Positions 56,652 to 64,000 of a stretch of DNA of 64,000 nt are shown here, piece by piece. How positions within the stretch are numbered: the first letter of the stretch is position 1; each line of letters opens with the position of its first letter. A model generated the notes under the pieces. The model searched no databases. It worked only from the letters and a program-made list of their open reading frames with translations, and was not told where the DNA came from. The stretch is from Comamonadaceae bacterium (GTDB lineage Bacteria; Pseudomonadota; Gammaproteobacteria; Burkholderiales; Burkholderiaceae_C), in the NCBI GenBank assembly GCA_009996515.1, contig JAACZV010000017.1, positions 62,001 to 126,000 on the forward strand, given 5' to 3'. The translations under genes were made by a program, and so were the position numbers.

Positions 56652-56790
56652 CGGTTCATCCGGGCCGCATGCAGCTCGCGGCCCGCGTCTGACGCTTCAT
56701 CGCAGCGCCATGGCGGCGCCCGGCTCCGGTGACGAAACTGCTTCCATCGACACAGCAATCCCGCTGTGCAGATACCCCAAAGGAAGCATC

Positions 56791-57024
56791 ATGAACACCA
56801 CCGTCCTGATCCAAGCCGCCGCCGTTGCCGCCTTCGCGTTCACCACCTTCGCCGCTGCCGCCGCGCCGCAGCAGGTCCAGCAGCTGCCCCGCGTCGTCGT
56901 CACCGGCAAGGCCGTCAAGGAAGTGGCCCAGCTGCCGCGCGTCGTCGTCACGGGCTATGCCGTTCGCGAGGTCGCCCAGGTGCAGCAGCTGCCCCGCGTG
57001 ACCGTCTTCGCCCGTCGCGCCTGA
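56791..57024 (+). CDS. small exported tandem-repeat protein with VVVTG motif
   Basis: A 77-residue protein not recognised as a known family. A signal peptide (1-25, MNTTVLIQAAAVAAFAFTTFAAAAA) is followed by about 50 residues of tandem repeat: QLPRVVVTGKAVKEVA (31-46), QLPRVVVTGYAVREVA (47-62) and QLPRVTVFARRA (66-77). The repeated PRVVVTG resembles the plug-entry VVVTG/TonB-box region of TonB-dependent receptors; the receptor at 15005 has QLETVVITAERR. An AAAGGAAG ribosome site lies 5-12 bases before the ATG. It is alone between the S9 peptidase and the cyclase-like gene. It has no cysteine. Role unknown. Confidence 0.8.
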   Translation: MNTTVLIQAAAVAAFAFTTFAAAAAPQQVQQLPRVVVTGKAVKEVAQLPRVVVTGYAVREVAQVQQLPRVTVFARRA

Positions 57025-57077: not shown

Positions 57078-57110
57078 CGGCGCAGCAGGCCGGTGGCCCG
57101 GGCTGCGCCG
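57078..57110. terminator. hairpin between the repeat-protein gene and the cyclase-like gene
   Basis: CGGCGCAGC and GCTGCGCCG form a nine-base-pair stem around a 15-base loop, 54 bases past the stop. Flanking direct copies of GCCGAGTCG surround it. No T run follows. Confidence 0.4.
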
Positions 57111-57123
57111 CCGAGTCGGCTTG

Positions 57124-57140
57124 GCGTGAGAATTTCACGC
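57124..57140. promoter_or_regulatory. palindrome upstream of the cyclase-like gene
   Basis: GCGTGA-GAATT-TCACGC is a six-base inverted repeat with an AT-rich centre, 43 bases before the GTG start at 57183. It has the look of an operator; no protein can be named. Confidence 0.4.
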
Positions 57141-57182
57141 GGCTCTGAAAGACAATCCGGGCTTCTTGAACGGAGCCCGCGA

Positions 57183-58427
57183 GTGAAAGAAGAGCTGCGC
57201 AAACGCCGGTCCTGGCTGGACGGCTTCATGGCCTACCCGGCGCCGGCGGGCCTCAGCGAAACCACGCTGCGCGACAACATCATCCTGCTGGACCAGGCGC
57301 TCTACGCGCTGTGGAGTCTGGGCGACAACCTCATCTACGCCTGGATGCCCGAGGGCCGCGGCCTGCGCGTGCTGGTCGCGCCGCACCAGATGCTGACCGA
57401 GTACGCGCTGGGCGACGGCAAGCTCGAGCCGGCCGAGACCCAGCGCCGCACGCGGCTGCTGGACAAGCTGCTGTCCAACCAGGAACACCTGGACCCGCAG
57501 GCCTTCGACGCCGTCAGCACCGCGCTGGGCGTCACGCCCCGCTACATCGAACTGCCCTTCACGCCCGAGCGCGGCCTGGGCCTGCCGCTGATCGCGGCCA
57601 TCGCGGCGCGCTACGGCATCCGCCTCGTGGAGGACCGCGCCGTCATCCTGTTCGACGCCGTCGGCTTCTCGCTGCTGACGCCGCTGCAGCAGGTCGTGCA
57701 GCTCAACAGCCTGTCCTGCTCCGTCAACGCGGCCTACGCCAAGCTGCTGGACCGCGAGATCAACATCAACTTCGCCCGCACCACCACCGGCGACGGCTTC
57801 TACATCTGGAACCGCATGCGCGGCGTCGAGGCCAATGTGGAGCTGTACCAGCTGATGCAGTTCATCCTGGCCGACAACGCGCTGGCCCAGGAGCGCGCGA
57901 CGCGGCCCGAATCGGTGCCGCGGCTGCGCGCCTGCTTCCATGTCGGCTCGCACTACGAGTTCTACCAGTCCGAGGGCCTGAACCCCACGTCCTTCAGCTA
58001 TTTGGTGGGTCAGGTGACGATAGAGCTGGCGCGCATGATCGACAGCGCCGAGCCGGGCCAGATCCTTGTCGGCAAGTTCAACACGCTGATGCACGACGAG
58101 ACCACCGGCGAGGACGTGCGCATCGACAGCCTGGGCTTCGTCGAGCGCACGCGCGCGCCGCTGCGCAGCCTCAACGGCCTCAAGCTGGCCGGCTCCGAGG
58201 TGGACGAGATCGCCTGCTACCTGACCGGCCGCCGCGACGCGTCCGGCCTGTGGGGCATCAGCGAATACCAGATGGCCGACAAGCACGGGCTCATCCACCG
58301 CGTCTACAACGCCAAGATCAACATCCATCGCCGCAACGGCGCGCCCATCTACCTGGGCCTGCGCGAGGAAGACCTGCCGGCGCATGCGTTGCGCACCGTC
58401 GCCGACACCGACTCCAAACCCTTGTAG
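57183..58427 (+). CDS. divergent class III nucleotidyl cyclase-like protein
   Basis: A 414-residue cytosolic protein. The N-terminal half (1-145) has no recognised domain. The C-terminal half has cyclase-fold features: VILFDAVGFS with metal-ligand D158 and TTTGDGFYIW with D204, then SYLVGQVTIELARMIDSAEPGQILV near residue 272-296, which aligns with the NLAARLESLAEPGQILV region of class III cyclases but has Ile in place of the transition-state Asn. Both metal-binding Asp are kept, so it may bind nucleotide but activity is doubtful. The start is GTG at 57183, preceded by GGAG. The next gene is a cyclase-AAA protein. Confidence 0.72.
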   Translation: MKEELRKRRSWLDGFMAYPAPAGLSETTLRDNIILLDQALYALWSLGDNLIYAWMPEGRGLRVLVAPHQMLTEYALGDGKLEPAETQRRTRLLDKLLSNQEHLDPQAFDAVSTALGVTPRYIELPFTPERGLGLPLIAAIAARYGIRLVEDRAVILFDAVGFSLLTPLQQVVQLNSLSCSVNAAYAKLLDREININFARTTTGDGFYIWNRMRGVEANVELYQLMQFILADNALAQERATRPESVPRLRACFHVGSHYEFYQSEGLNPTSFSYLVGQVTIELARMIDSAEPGQILVGKFNTLMHDETTGEDVRIDSLGFVERTRAPLRSLNGLKLAGSEVDEIACYLTGRRDASGLWGISEYQMADKHGLIHRVYNAKINIHRRNGAPIYLGLREEDLPAHALRTVADTDSKPL

Positions 58428-58515
58428 TGCAGCGCGCATTGCTGCGCGCTTAGGCCTACAAACACCGAATTTTGGCAACCGCGGATGGGCCGCTACCGCT
58501 AGCATTTCCAGCGTT

Positions 58516-61500
58516 GTGACCGAGTCCCCCGCCTCCACCGCTGCCAGCCCCGATGCCGTCGGCCAGCGCCGGCTGCTGACCCTGCTGTTCGTTGACCTGA
58601 GTGGCTCCACGGCCATGGCTGAATGGATGGAGGCCGAGCACTACGCGGCCATGCTGGCCGGGCTGCGCGCGCTGTACGAGCGCATCGTGCCCCACCATGG
58701 CGGCGTCATCGCGCGCATCCAGGGCGACGGCATGCTGGCCGTCTTCGGCCATCCCGAGGTGCGCGAGGACGATGGCCGCCGCGCCACCGAGGCCGCGCTG
58801 GAGCTGCATGCCGCCGTGCGCGGCATCATGCCGCCCGGCCCCAAGCCCGCCGATTTCGCCGGCCTGGCCCTGCACAGCGGCATCCATGCCGGCATCGTGC
58901 TCGTCAACGAGGGCGACCAGATGCGCGGCCGCTTCGAGCTGCTGGGCAACGCGCCCAACATCGCCGCCCGGCTGTCCGAGGCCGCGCGGCGCGACGAGAT
59001 CATCGCCAGCGAGGAGAGCCTGGGCCTGCAGAGCCAGTTCTTCGAGACCGGCCCGCGCTTCTCGCTGCAGCTGCGCGGCCGCGCGACGCCGCTGGCGGCC
59101 TATCGCGTGCACGGCCGCGCGCCGGTGGGGCGGCGTTTCGAGGCCAGCATGCGGCGTGGCCTGGCGCCGCTGGTCGGCCGCCAGGGTGAGCTGGCGGCGC
59201 TGGACGCAGCGCTGGCGCGCACGCTGGCCGGCCGCTCCCAGTGGCTGGGCATACGCGCCGGCGCCGGCGTCGGCAAGACCCGGCTCACCGAGGAGTTCCT
59301 GCGCCATGCGGCCGACCAGGCCGGCCAGGCCGTGCAGATCCACCGCGGCTACTGCGAGAGCTACCTCAGCGCGGAGCCGCTGCAGCCTTTCCTGCAGATG
59401 CTGCGTGCGCTGGACCTGCACGACGGCGGCCTGCCCGACGCACCGCCGGAGCTGTTCGCCGCCCAGCAGAGCGCGCCGGCCCAGCGCGCCGATGCGCTGC
59501 TGGCCCTGTTGCTGGCGCTGGCGCGGCGCACGCCGCAGCTGGTCTGCATCGACGACCTGCAATGGGCCGACGACGCCTCGCTGCGCCTGCTGCACCGGCT
59601 GCGCGCCGCGGCCCAGTCGCAAGGCCTGCCGCTGCTGCTGCTGACCGCCAGCCGGCCGGCGTCCGGCGCCGCCGCGCTGCCCGGCGCCAACGACGGCGAT
59701 GCCGACATCATCGAGCTGCCGCCGCTGACCGAGACCGAGGCCGCCCGCGCCGTGCAGCAGCTGCTGCCGCAGACCGACCCCTTCATCGCCGCCGAGGTGC
59801 AGCGCCATGCCGGCGGCAACCCGCTGTTCATCGAGGAGCTGTGCCATGCCGCGGCCGACAGCGGCGGCGGCTTGGTCGAGGGCCAGAGCGGCTCGGCCTG
59901 GCTGGCCGCCCTGGTCGAGTCGCGCGTCGGCCGCCTGCCGCCCGCGCAGGCCCAGCTGGTGCGCCTGGCCGCCGTCATCGGCAACGTCATCCCGGTCTGG
60001 CTGCTGAAGGCCTTGTCCGGCTGTGGCGAGCGCCATCCCGATGTGCAGGCGCTGGCCGCGCAGGACTTCATCTTCCCGGACCGGCGCCCCGGCCATCTGC
60101 GCTTCAAGCACGGCATCACGCGCGACGTCGTCTACGAGGCCACCGGCCTGCACGAGCGCCAGGCCCTGCACCGCCACATCAGCGCCGCGCTGAGCGCGCA
60201 TGGCGGTGCCGAGGACCAGCTGCACGAGCAGCTGGCCTACCACGACGCCGCCGCCAACGACTGGCCGGCCGCGGCCCGCCATGCCGAATCCGCCGGCGAC
60301 CAGGCGCTGGCCGTGTCGGCGCTGGACCGCGCCAAGAAGCAGTTCCGCGCCGCGCTGGCCGCGCTGGAGTTCCTGCCAGACGACGCGGAGCGCCGCCGCC
60401 GCTGGATCGCCATCGCGCAGCGCCTGGGCATGGCCTGCGTCTTCGACGCCTCGCAGGACGACCTGCGCGTGCTCAAGCATGCCGCCAGCCTGGCCCATGC
60501 CGCGGGCGAGCCCGGCCTGATCGCCCGCACCGAGTACTGGCTGGCCTATGTGGGCTATGCGCTGGGCGAGACGCGCGACAGCCTGCGCCATGCGCAGGCC
60601 GCCGTCCAGATGGCCCAGCATTGCGGCGACCATGCGCTGCTGGCCCAGCTGCCCGGCACCGTGGGCCAGCTCAAGGCCGCCGCGGCCGACTACGCCAGTG
60701 CCCTGCCCATGCTGGACCTGGCCATCGAGCGCCAGCGCGAGCGCGCCAGCAAGAGCGCGGTCAACCAGATCGGCCTGTCCTTCTCGCTGTGCTGCCGTGC
60801 CTATGTGCTGGGCGACCAGGGCCGGTTCGCGCAGGCCCACGAGATCTTCGCCGAGGCCCTGGCCCCCTTCGACGGCAGCGGCCATGCGGTGGAGGCCAGC
60901 ATCCAGGGCTGGCGCGCCGCCGTGCTGCTGTGGCAGGGCCGCTGGGCCGAGGCCCGCGAGGCCGCGGCCGTGGCCCACCGCGTCGGCGCCCAGGTGCGCA
61001 GCATGTTCACCTGCGCCATGGGCCACGCCGCCGGCGCCTATGGCGCCTGGATGCAGGAGGCCGACCCGGCCGCGCGCCAGCACATCCTGGACGCCACCGC
61101 CTGGCTGGCGCCGCGCGGCGGCGGCCTGTACAGCAGCTTCCAGCATGGCTGGCTGGCCGACATCCTGTCCACCCAGGGCGATGCCGGTGCGGCGCGCCAC
61201 CATGTGGCCCTGGCCTTGAGGCGTGGCCGCCAGCATGACTGGATAGGCGGCGCCATGGCCTACCGTGCCGCCGCCCGCCTGGCGGCCGGCGTGGGCGACG
61301 CTGCCCGAGCCAGACGCTATCTGGACCTGGCGCGCGGCGCCGGCGCGCAGCGCAACTCGGCCCATGAGGCCGCCGTCACCGAGCTGCTGGAGGCCGAGCT
61401 GCGCCTGGACGAGGGCTGGCAGGCCGCCCGCGACCACGCGCAGCGCGAGTTCGAGCGGCTGGGCATGACGGGTTTCCTGGAGCGGGCGCGGCGGCTGTAG
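58516..61500 (+). CDS. adenylate/guanylate cyclase-AAA ATPase-TPR protein
   Basis: A 994-residue cytosolic protein. Residues 15-175 form a class III cyclase domain with FVDLSGST (D27) and IQGDGMLAVFG (D71), and GNAPNIAARL (144-153) that keeps Asn and Arg of the catalytic loop. The residues that set ATP versus GTP are unusual (Arg before the QGD, Asn at the usual Asp site). Residues 215-480 are an AAA ATPase with Walker A GAGVGKT (249-255) and Walker B LVCIDDLQWADD, and 600-994 are TPR-like repeats. The start is GTG at 58516. This layout resembles large CyaA-like regulators. Confidence 0.88.
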   Translation: MTESPASTAASPDAVGQRRLLTLLFVDLSGSTAMAEWMEAEHYAAMLAGLRALYERIVPHHGGVIARIQGDGMLAVFGHPEVREDDGRRATEAALELHAAVRGIMPPGPKPADFAGLALHSGIHAGIVLVNEGDQMRGRFELLGNAPNIAARLSEAARRDEIIASEESLGLQSQFFETGPRFSLQLRGRATPLAAYRVHGRAPVGRRFEASMRRGLAPLVGRQGELAALDAALARTLAGRSQWLGIRAGAGVGKTRLTEEFLRHAADQAGQAVQIHRGYCESYLSAEPLQPFLQMLRALDLHDGGLPDAPPELFAAQQSAPAQRADALLALLLALARRTPQLVCIDDLQWADDASLRLLHRLRAAAQSQGLPLLLLTASRPASGAAALPGANDGDADIIELPPLTETEAARAVQQLLPQTDPFIAAEVQRHAGGNPLFIEELCHAAADSGGGLVEGQSGSAWLAALVESRVGRLPPAQAQLVRLAAVIGNVIPVWLLKALSGCGERHPDVQALAAQDFIFPDRRPGHLRFKHGITRDVVYEATGLHERQALHRHISAALSAHGGAEDQLHEQLAYHDAAANDWPAAARHAESAGDQALAVSALDRAKKQFRAALAALEFLPDDAERRRRWIAIAQRLGMACVFDASQDDLRVLKHAASLAHAAGEPGLIARTEYWLAYVGYALGETRDSLRHAQAAVQMAQHCGDHALLAQLPGTVGQLKAAAADYASALPMLDLAIERQRERASKSAVNQIGLSFSLCCRAYVLGDQGRFAQAHEIFAEALAPFDGSGHAVEASIQGWRAAVLLWQGRWAEAREAAAVAHRVGAQVRSMFTCAMGHAAGAYGAWMQEADPAARQHILDATAWLAPRGGGLYSSFQHGWLADILSTQGDAGAARHHVALALRRGRQHDWIGGAMAYRAAARLAAGVGDAARARRYLDLARGAGAQRNSAHEAAVTELLEAELRLDEGWQAARDHAQREFERLGMTGFLERARRL

Positions 61501-61515: not shown

Positions 61516-64000
61516 TCAGATCGCCAGCGCCACCACCGTCGGCGAGCCCGTGAAGCGCATCACGCCGGCATCCAGCACCGCCGCGATGACGCCCAGCATG
61601 ACGCCCATGCCCATGCCATAGCCCGGGCAGGCATGCGGCGGCGCACCCTGCGGATCGGCGCGGTCGCCGCCGAAGGCGACATGGTGGCGCAGCGGATCCT
61701 GCTGCGTGGCCGAGCCCAGGCCCACGATGAGGGTGTCGCCGGCGGCGATGTCCACCTGGCCCAGGCGATGGTCGCTCCGGGCGCGGCGCCAAATCTGGAA
61801 GGGCGTGGGGCGCTGGTTCAGCGTCGCCAGCAGCGCCGGGCGCAGCCGCGCGACCGCCTCGGCGTAGCGCTGGGCGTCGGTCGCGGCGGGCGCCACCTCG
61901 TGCCAGCCGGGCTGCAGGTCCCACAGCTTGCGCGTCTGCACCCAGGCGCCCAGCACGGTCAGCAGATTGCCATGCGTGGTGGGCGGGAAGCCCAGCATGA
62001 CGCCGGCCAGCGTGCGCGCGGCCAGGTCGGCCGGTGCGCCGGGCACGGCCTCGGTGGCCTTGACGATCTGCTCCGTCAGCGCCGGCCACTGCGCCCGCGG
62101 CGTGGTCTGCAGCCAGGCGGCGGTGGCGGCCAGGAAGCTCTGGCCGGCCTTGCGGCCGGTGTCGCTGACGAAGGCGCTGGGATGCGGGCCGAACACATGG
62201 CGCGACACCTGGAACAGCGCGCGCGGGCAGCGCGGCGGCTCGGGCGACACGGGCGGGTGCGGCTCGGTGCCCCAGACCAGCCGGCCGTCGGGCAGGCCGA
62301 ACCAGGCGCGGCACAGCGCGGCCAGCACGCCCTCGCTGAGGCGCTCCAGGTCCAGCGGCGTGTCGGCCGGGATGCCGTCGGGTTTCTGGCCGGCCGGGAA
62401 GGCGGCCAGCAGCGCGCGCGCCTCCTGCTTCAGGTCGGCCAGGCCCTTGCGGGCGATGGCGTAGGCGGCGCCGAAGGCCTGGTCCTCGCTGACCTGCTCC
62501 AGCGCCCGGTTGACCGCGGGGGCCTGCTCCTTGTGGCCGTTGTCGTCGTCCATGCCGAGGAAGCCCTCGCCGATGGAGTCGCGCATGCGTTCGCCATAGC
62601 CCTTGTTGGAGTAGCGCTCGCCCGTATTGCGCAGCACGTCGCAGACACGCTCCGGCGCGCCGACGAGCACGCCGTAGGCGGTGCGGGCGACGCCGCCGGG
62701 CTGGGCACGCACCCAGGCCCAGGCGAGGTCGCGGGTGTTGGTGTCCTCCAGCCAGCGCTGCCAGGCGGCGAAGTCGTCCGGCGCCGGCGCCTGCAGCGGC
62801 ACGGGCGTGGCGGCCGGCAACGGCAGGGGCAGCTCGGCCAGCGCCGGCAGGGCCTTGAGCGCCGGGATGGAGGGCACGAAGAAATAGGCGCCCCATTGCA
62901 GCGTCACGAAGGGCTGGCTGCCCAGGTCGATCTCGTAGGGCTTGCCGGCATGCTCGAAAGGGTAGAGGCGCCTGCCCTGGCCGGGATCCACGACCCCGAG
63001 AAACGGGTCGCTCTGCGCCGAATAGCCGCCGCTGGCGTTGGCGCCGGCCATCCAGCGCTGCACCACCTCGAACTGCTCGGCCAGGTGGGCGTTGTAGGCC
63101 ATGAAGACCAGGCCGCGGTCTTCCTTGTCATTGGGGTTGAGGCGGTCTGGCGGCGGGCCGTAGCTCATGCCGCGGCGCAGGATGCGCGGCATGCGGCCGG
63201 TCAGCGCGGAGTCCGGCGCCTGGTCGCGCGGGTTGGCGCGGCGGATATGGGCGTGGAAGGGGCAGGCCGAGCCGCGCGCGTCGCGCTCGTAGTTGAAGTC
63301 GTTGCGGTCCGTGCTCTCGTCGGCCAGCGCCTTGCCGTCCAGGCGGCGGCCCATCAGCTTGGCCAGCAGCAGCTCGCGCGGCAGGTTGATGCGCTTGGCC
63401 TCGCGCTCGACGCAGTCGTGCAGCCGGCCGGTGTACTGGCGCAGCTTGCGCACGGCCAGGAAGCTGCCGCAGTCCAGCAGCGGGTCGGCCTGCTCGGGCA
63501 CCGGCCAGCCCTTGTCGCGCAGCGTGGAGAAGCCCTGCACGATCTCGCCCTCGGGCACCTGGTCGTCCCAGTGCTGGTGCGGAGCCGGGTCCAGGCCGGG
63601 CTGGCTGATGCCGTCCTTGAAGCCGAAGTTCTCGCGGTCGGCAGCGTTGCTGCGCATGGGCTCCACGGCCATCAGCGACAGGCCCGTGCCCTCGGTCAGG
63701 CGCCGGCCGGCGGCAGCGATGCGCGCCTGGTCGTCTGGCGTCAGGGCCTCGCCGCCGTTGGGGTTGTGGAAGCGCAGCTGCACCAGCAGGTGGGCGCCGG
63801 CCGGGTCGAAGCGGTCATGCTGGTTGACATGGGGCGCCAGCGCCCAGTGGCTGGGATGGTTGTGGCGCACGTCGCCCAGCAGGCCGGCGCGGGCCGCCAT
63901 GCCCTCCTTGAAGGCCTGCGGGAAGCGCGCCAGCCGCGCCTCGGGGATGCCCAGCGCCTTCAGGCCGGCCAGCGTCAGCGCCAGCTGTTGCCAGGCGCCG
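61516..64000 (-). CDS. DyP-type peroxidase fused to cytochrome P450-like domain (5' end cut by window edge)
   Basis: A single open frame of at least 827 codons runs off the right edge. Counting from the Met at 63900, the DyP part (1-345) has GFKDG (92-97, distal Asp), the proximal heme histidine in FHAHIRRANPRD (H218) and ILRRGMSYG with the distal Arg. After a Pro/Ala-rich linker (350-375) comes a P450-like part (390-794): GVLVGAPERVCDVLRN, GFPPTTHGN in the I-helix position, LIVGLGSATQQDP and the heme loop HACPGYGMGMG with C758. No clear ExxR is visible. DyP enzymes oxidise dyes and phenols with hydrogen peroxide; a P450 fusion is uncommon. No frameshift separates the domains. Confidence 0.85.
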   Translation of the reverse strand, partial: GAWQQLALTLAGLKALGIPEARLARFPQAFKEGMAARAGLLGDVRHNHPSHWALAPHVNQHDRFDPAGAHLLVQLRFHNPNGGEALTPDDQARIAAAGRRLTEGTGLSLMAVEPMRSNAADRENFGFKDGISQPGLDPAPHQHWDDQVPEGEIVQGFSTLRDKGWPVPEQADPLLDCGSFLAVRKLRQYTGRLHDCVEREAKRINLPRELLLAKLMGRRLDGKALADESTDRNDFNYERDARGSACPFHAHIRRANPRDQAPDSALTGRMPRILRRGMSYGPPPDRLNPNDKEDRGLVFMAYNAHLAEQFEVVQRWMAGANASGGYSAQSDPFLGVVDPGQGRRLYPFEHAGKPYEIDLGSQPFVTLQWGAYFFVPSIPALKALPALAELPLPLPAATPVPLQAPAPDDFAAWQRWLEDTNTRDLAWAWVRAQPGGVARTAYGVLVGAPERVCDVLRNTGERYSNKGYGERMRDSIGEGFLGMDDDNGHKEQAPAVNRALEQVSEDQAFGAAYAIARKGLADLKQEARALLAAFPAGQKPDGIPADTPLDLERLSEGVLAALCRAWFGLPDGRLVWGTEPHPPVSPEPPRCPRALFQVSRHVFGPHPSAFVSDTGRKAGQSFLAATAAWLQTTPRAQWPALTEQIVKATEAVPGAPADLAARTLAGVMLGFPPTTHGNLLTVLGAWVQTRKLWDLQPGWHEVAPAATDAQRYAEAVARLRPALLATLNQRPTPFQIWRRARSDHRLGQVDIAAGDTLIVGLGSATQQDPLRHHVAFGGDRADPQGAPPHACPGYGMGMGVMLGVIAAVLDAGVMRFTGSPTVVALAI

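Follow-up and report, generated by a model that had tools for sequence, protein, structure and literature searches.

A conserved bacterial fusion of a DyP peroxidase with a P450-derived domain

The fusion protein described here, made by some bacteria of soil and water, is built of three parts: an N-terminal domain, a dye-decolorizing (DyP) peroxidase and, at the C-terminus, a domain with the P450 fold. What bacterial DyPs do physiologically is still largely unsettled; the conserved fusion, together with one genome in which the same parts lie adjacent, links a DyP with one particular second heme enzyme. Its P450 half, in which the thiolate ligand is kept and both the ExxR motif and the I-helix acid are lost, amounts to a natural experiment on which parts of a P450 serve folding, heme retention and oxygen activation.

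Gene structure and domain layout

The window, the whole 64,000-nucleotide stretch analyzed here, spans bases 62001-126000 of contig C17 in a 4.58-Mb genome (G000). From the stop codon at window position 61516 to the end of the window runs a single open frame on the minus strand (Table 1). The contig extends 2,054 bases past the window, and reading the frame to its true start at C17:127046, 1,046 bases outside the window, recovers a complete protein of 1,176 residues with the N-terminus MARGNDVQLGG. A methionine occupies this start column in 35 of 36 long-frame relatives, the exception (L067) beginning at a contig end. The N-terminal domain (approximately residues 1-290) lies wholly outside the window and was hence invisible to the original prediction, which had proposed DyP and P450-like parts in one frame with an intact linker and no intervening stop. 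Frame reading and the relatives bear this out, and the motifs it named (GFKDG, HIRRANPRD, ILRRGMSYG, PTTHGN and HACPGYGMGMG) are all present in frame. Across 35 relatives, the linker has an aligned length of 26-55 residues and a mean identity of 0.49. The model of the whole protein has a pLDDT of 75.9 and a pTM of 0.59 and is least to be trusted near the DyP active site, where confidence is low; no conclusion is drawn from how it positions one heme site against the other.

Table 1. Features of the fusion gene and its convergent neighbor, in window coordinates
Feature	Position	Strand	Basis or conservation
DyP-P450 fusion gene, residues 350-1176 and stop	61516..64000	-	frame reading of the window
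DyP peroxidase domain, in-window part, residues 350-735 (domain begins near residue 300)	62842..63999	-	PDB 8re3_A match, PF20628
GFKDG, DyP GxxDG motif with distal Asp478 (presumed role)	63610..63624	-	G475, D478, G479 invariant, 36/36
HIRRANPRD, with proximal heme-ligand His600 (presumed role)	63223..63249	-	H600 invariant, 36/36; aligns with HIRRMNPRD of 8re3
RRGMSYG, with distal Arg624 (presumed role)	63157..63177	-	R624 invariant, 36/36
Linker, residues 736-765	62752..62841	-	alignment
P450-fold domain, residues 766-1176	61519..62751	-	AF2 model, structure matches
GFPPTTHGN, I-helix, Pro1022 before Thr1023	61966..61992	-	P1022, T1023 36/36; aligns with GAIPTTSK of a true P450
ATLNQRPTPFQIWR, K-helix region without ExxR (1074, 1077), then propionate-type Arg1087 (presumed role)	61786..61827	-	residue counts, 36/36
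FGGDRADPQGAPPHACPGYG, heme-thiolate loop, Cys1140 and HxC His1138	61615..61674	-	H1138, C1140, G1142 36/36
Nucleotidyl cyclase - AAA ATPase - TPR protein, 1,038 aa, convergent, 15 bases from the fusion gene	58384..61500	+	Pfam

Distribution of the fusion

A search with the full protein of 60 genomes (its own, 19 of the genus and others of the family and order) gave matches in 28. The fusion is matched in its own genome and in all 19 others of the genus, with the gene split over two contigs in G001 and G013 and cut at a contig end in G010; two further genomes of the family (G030 and G032) also carry it whole, and six more match in the DyP part only. The P450-part profile A2 was scanned against 84,980 species by means of two short peptide patterns only, an approach that misses more distant members, and yielded 40 loci. 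In 38 of these, the DyP motifs and the HACxGY loop share one frame, and the remaining two (L034 and L070) stop at contig edges before the DyP part. An assembly or sequencing error joining two genes is rejected by the agreement of the 19 same-genus genomes and of these 38 relatives, and we give it practically no chance.

The nearest named relatives are Roseateles sequences, whose P450 parts are 89% and 85% identical to that of the fusion; L033 belongs to Roseateles puraquae, a non-pathogenic bacterium of water. Alignment A3 leaves out L066, which is near-identical to L065, and L070, a 123-residue stub; A4 and the residue counts over 36 sequences further leave out the truncated L034, L046 and L071. 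Searching 398 genomes of the phylum with A3 returned, apart from the protein's own genome, a single true fusion in G169 and free P450-like genes in G441 (E 1.6e-4) and G078 (E 6.1e-4). Three more distant members were found outside the 40-locus scan: L097, through the A3 search, L098, through the 60-genome search, and a Sphingopyxis plasmid copy, which has a short N-terminus and whose start lies 64 bases past a Tn3 transposase gene. All 10 close pairs compared show a lower dN than dS in the N-terminal, DyP and P450 parts alike.

The DyP half

The DyP half belongs to the DyP superfamily by both sequence and fold, and its catalytic residue set is intact. The Pfam DyP family to which the original prediction had pointed, PF04261, gives no match; the domain is found instead by PF20628 (27.8 bits against a cut-off of 20) and by solved DyPs. 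NCBIfam TIGR01413 scores 91 bits, just below its cut-off of 100.5, and no animal-peroxidase family appears among the Pfam results for the fusion protein. The closest solved relative by sequence is 8re3_A, a DyP of Deinococcus radiodurans, matched by phmmer over residues 350-735 (E 9.1e-39). In a Foldseek search with the full model, the first 18 rows are all DyPs, and the Deinococcus enzyme (8re3, 8re2) is the closest by fold as well. The two proteins have in common the GxxDG motif, HIRR.NPRD and the distal arginine. Asp478, His600 and Arg624, each invariant in all 36 sequences, are presumed to be the distal Asp, proximal His and distal Arg of a DyP. The Deinococcus protein differs in being a stand-alone enzyme of ~445 residues with no P450 part.

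The C-terminal half is a P450-derived domain

The Pfam p450 family, PF00067, has no match to the fusion protein, nor to any of 10 members in single-sequence searches; a search of the whole genome with it found two other P450s and nothing on contig C17. The C-terminal half is nevertheless a P450-derived domain, as originally predicted, and profile-profile comparison and predicted fold both reject the alternative that it is unrelated to P450s. A profile built from ten relatives and compared with PDB sequences matched 28 distinct chains to E 10 (best E 0.0017), of which 25 are P450s, some of them entered under individual names such as NzeB, NascB, AspB and TamI, and three are methane monooxygenase gamma chains. 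By hhalign, the family profile matches the free P450 of locus L107 with an E-value of 1.8e-8 over 329 columns. In the hhalign test set, 13 of 23 true P450s and none of 60 unrelated ORFs fell at E <= 0.0012, while the other 10 P450s did not; the lowest value among the unrelated ORFs, compared like the P450s with the fusion family's profile, was 0.0098. The P450 locus L090 was left out of this comparison, since the motif filter did not pick it up, and single profile E-values were not relied on alone.

AlphaFold2 gives a confident P450 fold for the C-terminal half (window 61516-62760; pLDDT 91.8, pTM 0.92). The 50 PDB rows listed in a Foldseek search with this model are all P450s, and the best VIA-align match is to P450BioI (Z 31.4, rmsd 2.8, 342 residues). 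When 369 genomes of the class were searched with A6, three gave hits besides the protein's own genome: a P450 adjoining a DyP in G050, a P450 in G583, and a match in G082 (E 1.7e-6) that contains an internal stop, shows no P450-like gene by eye and is probably false.

Residues kept and lost in the P450 half

Cys1140, the HxC histidine His1138, Gly1142, Arg1087 and Trp1086 are invariant in the 36 full-length sequences, and Arg1087 presumably has the heme-propionate role. The heme cysteine is also present in L071, L072, L097 and L098, with the CxG glycine replaced by alanine in L072. In FGGDRADPQGAPPHACPGYG, the stretch from FGG to HAC is longer than in FGxGxHxCxG. Both halves of the protein probably bind heme, because the ligands in each are conserved. 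The meander that leads from the last beta strand to the cysteine loop looks short by eye.

The ExxR motif, which the original prediction could not find in the single sequence, is lost across the family. Residue 1074, the glutamate position, is Glu in none of the 36 sequences (Ala 25, Arg 3, Gln 2, Asn 2, and Gly, Ser, Thr and Asp 1 each), and residue 1077 is Arg in six. In L098, outside this set, the glutamate is kept and the arginine replaced by Gln, as judged by eye. The I-helix reads GF[PLA]PT[TV] in the family, with Pro at the acid position and Thr1023 after it in all 36 sequences, followed by Thr (19) or Val (17); the threonine is missing at its position in the divergent copies L071 and L072 (Sphingopyxis copy).

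In ordinary P450s, the I-helix residue before the threonine is acidic and bears on oxygen activation, whereas ExxR serves the fold and the heme pocket and is not the motif that activates oxygen. The original suggestion that oxygen activation may have been lost with ExxR thus holds as to the loss of the motif but not as to its use as a marker of oxygen activation, on which the replacement of the I-helix acid by proline bears instead. Judged by its residues, the P450 half lacks the equipment of an oxygen-activating monooxygenase, the acid-alcohol pair being incomplete and ExxR gone.

The N-terminal domain and loci with unfused parts

Neither Pfam nor the PDB sequences gave a match to the N-terminal domain (residues 1-290). 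Proteins resembling it occur as separate genes before DyP-like genes at L110, L103 and L107, the DyP nature of the L103 neighbor being judged by eye. By hhalign, the N-domain profile matches a 232-aa protein at L110 (E 8.2e-12), a 150-aa protein at L103 (E 3.7e-12) and two proteins at L107 (E 5.8e-5 and 1.2e-4), against a lowest control value of 0.026 among 60 unrelated ORFs. At L110, a weakly catalase-like gene (15.4 bits, cut-off 25) comes first, followed in a row by the N-domain and DyP genes. A search of 398 genomes with the N-terminal domain returned, besides the protein's own genome, two places in G169, one match in G350 and one in G059, the last a 55-residue frame with a stop and probably a chance match.

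Locus L107 (same order) carries, on one strand and with gaps of 23-84 bases, two N-domain-like genes, a DyP (PF21105, 59.4 bits), a P450 and a glutathione-transferase-like gene. Its P450 is the fusion family's best full-length profile match, has GAIPTT in the I-helix and directly follows the N-domain-like and DyP genes. Unlike the fusion, it is a separate gene that scores above the Pfam p450 cut-off (72.7 bits), with ExxR present (ESLR, by eye) and an ordinary cysteine loop.

This unfused DyP-P450 neighborhood was found in one genome only. A related P450 occurs in 24 of the 41 genomes in the family of G050 (the L107 family), with the identities shown at most 38% apart from G050 itself. At the four loci read there (L123-L126), the P450 adjoins a gene resembling a RoxA-like cytochrome c, not a DyP; the neighbor at L108 is RoxA-like by Pfam, the sole one so confirmed.

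Neighboring genes

The gene convergent with the fusion encodes a cyclase-ATPase-TPR protein that the original prediction had not mentioned. Pfam matches it to Guanylate_cyc (47.1 bits, cut-off 21.9) and AAA_16 (71.1, cut-off 32.6); TPR_12 falls under its cut-off (21.8 against 30.1), and the NCBIfam TOMM kinase/cyclase model scores 163.7, far under its cut-off of 705.75. This gene is present at 35 of the 40 loci, convergent in 34 and co-directional in one, and within 600 bases of the fusion in 24. It is absent from the flank of L032, L042, L049 and L052, and the contig of L043 ends too soon. The cyclase gene also adjoins the fusion in the Sphingopyxis plasmid and in L098. By eye, no redox partner is seen among the gene clusters common to at least five loci.

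A few loci carry lipase links, all by matches below the Pfam curated cut-offs. The divergent members L097 and L098 are extended at the C-terminus by sequence that weakly matches GDSL_2 (27.0 and 17.8 bits, respectively, against a cut-off of 32.9). A patatin-like gene (27.4, cut-off 27.7) lies directly upstream in L065. Upstream genes at other loci are unrelated; in L058, L061 and L062 they encode a histidine kinase, a protein of beta-lactamase fold and an aldose epimerase. A gene similar in appearance to that of L065 lies upstream in L068.

Relation to known peroxidase-P450 fusions

The fungal linoleate diol synthase and Ppo fusions likewise place a peroxidase-type heme domain before a P450 in one chain (PMC13049297). 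That paper reports that the fungal CYP fusion partners are self-sufficient, keep HxC and isomerize hydroperoxides made by the attached dioxygenase. The Ppo-family P450s have the HxC cysteine pocket in degenerate surroundings and an unusual I-helix that lacks the acid; in 9-AOS, this region contains Pro and Thr, as (V/A)PxT or TPxG (same source). The DyP-P450 family resembles them in showing HAC and PPT[TV]. In the fungal fusions, the N-terminal enzyme belongs to the peroxidase-cyclooxygenase superfamily, whereas here it is a DyP, an unrelated fold; the present fusion further differs in being bacterial, in its extra N-terminal domain and in the loss of ExxR as well. The likeness in HAC and PPT[TV] is a parallel and not a homology of the fusions, because the peroxidase halves have unrelated folds.

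The CYP5619 peroxidase/dioxygenase-P450 fusions of oomycetes also join a peroxidase to an atypical P450 part. They are reported to have EXXR and CXG with a degenerate heme-binding motif, and their partner is not a DyP, whereas in the DyP-P450 family CxG is invariant and ExxR is lost (PMC5919972). P450s of the CYP157 type in Streptomyces lack ExxR and are reported as proven functional; they keep EVLW or EQILW in place, whereas this position varies freely in the DyP-P450 family and the domain is fused to a DyP (PMC3990721). Among the titles and abstract openings listed for the open PMC literature, no DyP-P450 fusion was found. Peroxidase-P450 fusions are thus already known in fungi and oomycetes, and within that open literature, as sampled, DyP appears new as a partner.

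A possible mechanism and its alternatives

The reading we tentatively prefer, at somewhat less than an even chance, is that the P450 half handles a hydroperoxide and is coupled to the DyP half. The protein would be a cytosolic three-part diheme enzyme, composed of the N-terminal domain, the DyP and the P450-derived heme-thiolate domain. With hydrogen peroxide, the DyP half would oxidize a substrate, at best guess one of lipid type, and the radical so formed would take up oxygen. The P450 half, probably acting on peroxide with no need of a redox partner, would isomerize or cleave the resulting hydroperoxide, as in the fungal linoleate dioxygenase-P450 fusions, and the conserved cyclase-ATPase-TPR neighbor may sense the product. 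Several observations argue for a hydroperoxide-handling P450 half: the loss of the I-helix acid with the threonine kept in all 36 sequences, the likeness of HAC and PPT[TV] to the fungal motifs, the separate N-domain-like, DyP and GAIPTT P450 genes of L107, the catalase-like, N-domain and DyP row of L110, the lipase hints from GDSL_2 in two divergent relatives and the patatin-like gene of L065, and the lack of a redox partner among the shared clusters. The constraint that keeps both active sites also speaks for it. Against this reading stand the sub-cut-off scores and small number of the lipase links and the unrelated upstream genes of L058, L061 and L062, as do the single genome with an unfused pair, the RoxA-like neighbors at the four related loci read, and the missing I-helix threonine in L071 and L072. 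It also counts against it that we know of no DyPs acting as hydroperoxide formers.

The peroxygenase relay originally proposed is one possible mechanism and is not singled out by these data; the neighbors and the fungal fusions favor a hydroperoxide-handling P450 a little more. As a peroxygenase pair, the P450 half would hydroxylate through the peroxide shunt while the DyP half removed excess peroxide or further oxidized the product. The fused partner is itself a peroxide-using fold, and peroxide-driven P450 chemistry fits the loss of the I-helix acid and the lack of an obvious redox partner nearby. Peroxygenase P450s (CYP152), however, have an I-helix Arg near the heme for the carboxylate substrate, and the family helix GF[PLA]PT[TV] is without an Arg of that type. 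We consider such a pair rather unlikely. The losses of ExxR and the acid would also fit catalytic decay, with the P450 half serving as a regulatory module that may or may not bind heme; it could, for example, be a sensor of peroxide, NO or a ligand that controls the DyP or signals to the cyclase. A role of this kind, which has a minor but appreciable likelihood, is in keeping with a signaling gene as the sole widely conserved neighbor; it sits poorly with the invariance of Cys1140, His1138, Arg1087, Trp1086 and the I-helix Pro-Thr, with dN below dS in every pair, and with the ordinary-looking P450 that adjoins a DyP in L107. Many bacterial P450s use redox partners encoded far away, and the fold and thiolate ligand would suit a conventional oxygen-using monooxygenase of this sort, with the DyP half coupled for peroxide removal. 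Proline in place of the acid of the acid-alcohol pair in all 36 sequences and the absence of ExxR make this very improbable.

A bolder extension of the hydroperoxide reading, which we regard as speculative and improbable, is that the protein is a bacterial counterpart of the fungal psi-factor synthases, built independently from a DyP and a P450. It would make an oxylipin-like signal from membrane lipids, which the adjacent STAND-like cyclase-ATPase-TPR protein would sense, raising cAMP. If so, bacteria would have a wider toolkit for lipid-peroxide signaling, with DyP, the N-domain, lipases and P450 or catalase-like partners as its interchangeable parts.

Standard annotation conceals the P450 half, as Pfam p450 fails to detect the domain. 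The Sphingopyxis copy, the sole plasmid copy found, is annotated merely as a Dyp-type peroxidase domain protein.

Genomic neighborhoods of the fusion gene and its parts

The fusion gene and its cyclase neighbor also occur on the Sphingopyxis plasmid pDB-1. There, an N-terminally short fusion copy has a Tn3 transposase gene on one side and the cyclase-type AAA ATPase gene on the other; past the ATPase gene lies a gene for a Crp/Fnr regulator. This setting suggests horizontal spread of the gene pair. The 444-residue protein adjoining the cyclase gene is kept next to it in 21 of the 40 loci carrying the fusion gene. It has no Pfam matches, and stretches of its sequence look, by eye, like a second cyclase-like domain. 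In many loci, the DNA upstream of the fusion gene encodes relatives of the short protein of L001.

In L112–L122 and L123–L126, all from genomes of one family, and in L108, free P450s adjoin genes that resemble RoxA-like cytochrome c, with Pfam confirmation of this identity in L108 only. Here, too, a P450 may be paired with a second heme oxidase.

Coordinates of neighboring, stand-alone, and extended features in the window and in individual loci (L)
Feature	Location	Strand
Short protein, secreted-looking, repeated PRVV[VI][TE]G motif	window 56710-57024	+
Short protein, secreted-looking, repeated PRVV[VI][TE]G motif	L001:8247-8525	+
444-residue protein	window 57093-58427	+
Three consecutive genes: weakly catalase-like protein, separate version of the fusion's N-terminal domain, stand-alone DyP	L110:7232-10337	-
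Fusion protein, ~1,586 residues, C-terminal weak GDSL-lipase match	L097:392-5155	
Fusion protein, ~1,586 residues, C-terminal weak GDSL-lipase match	L098:5585-10342
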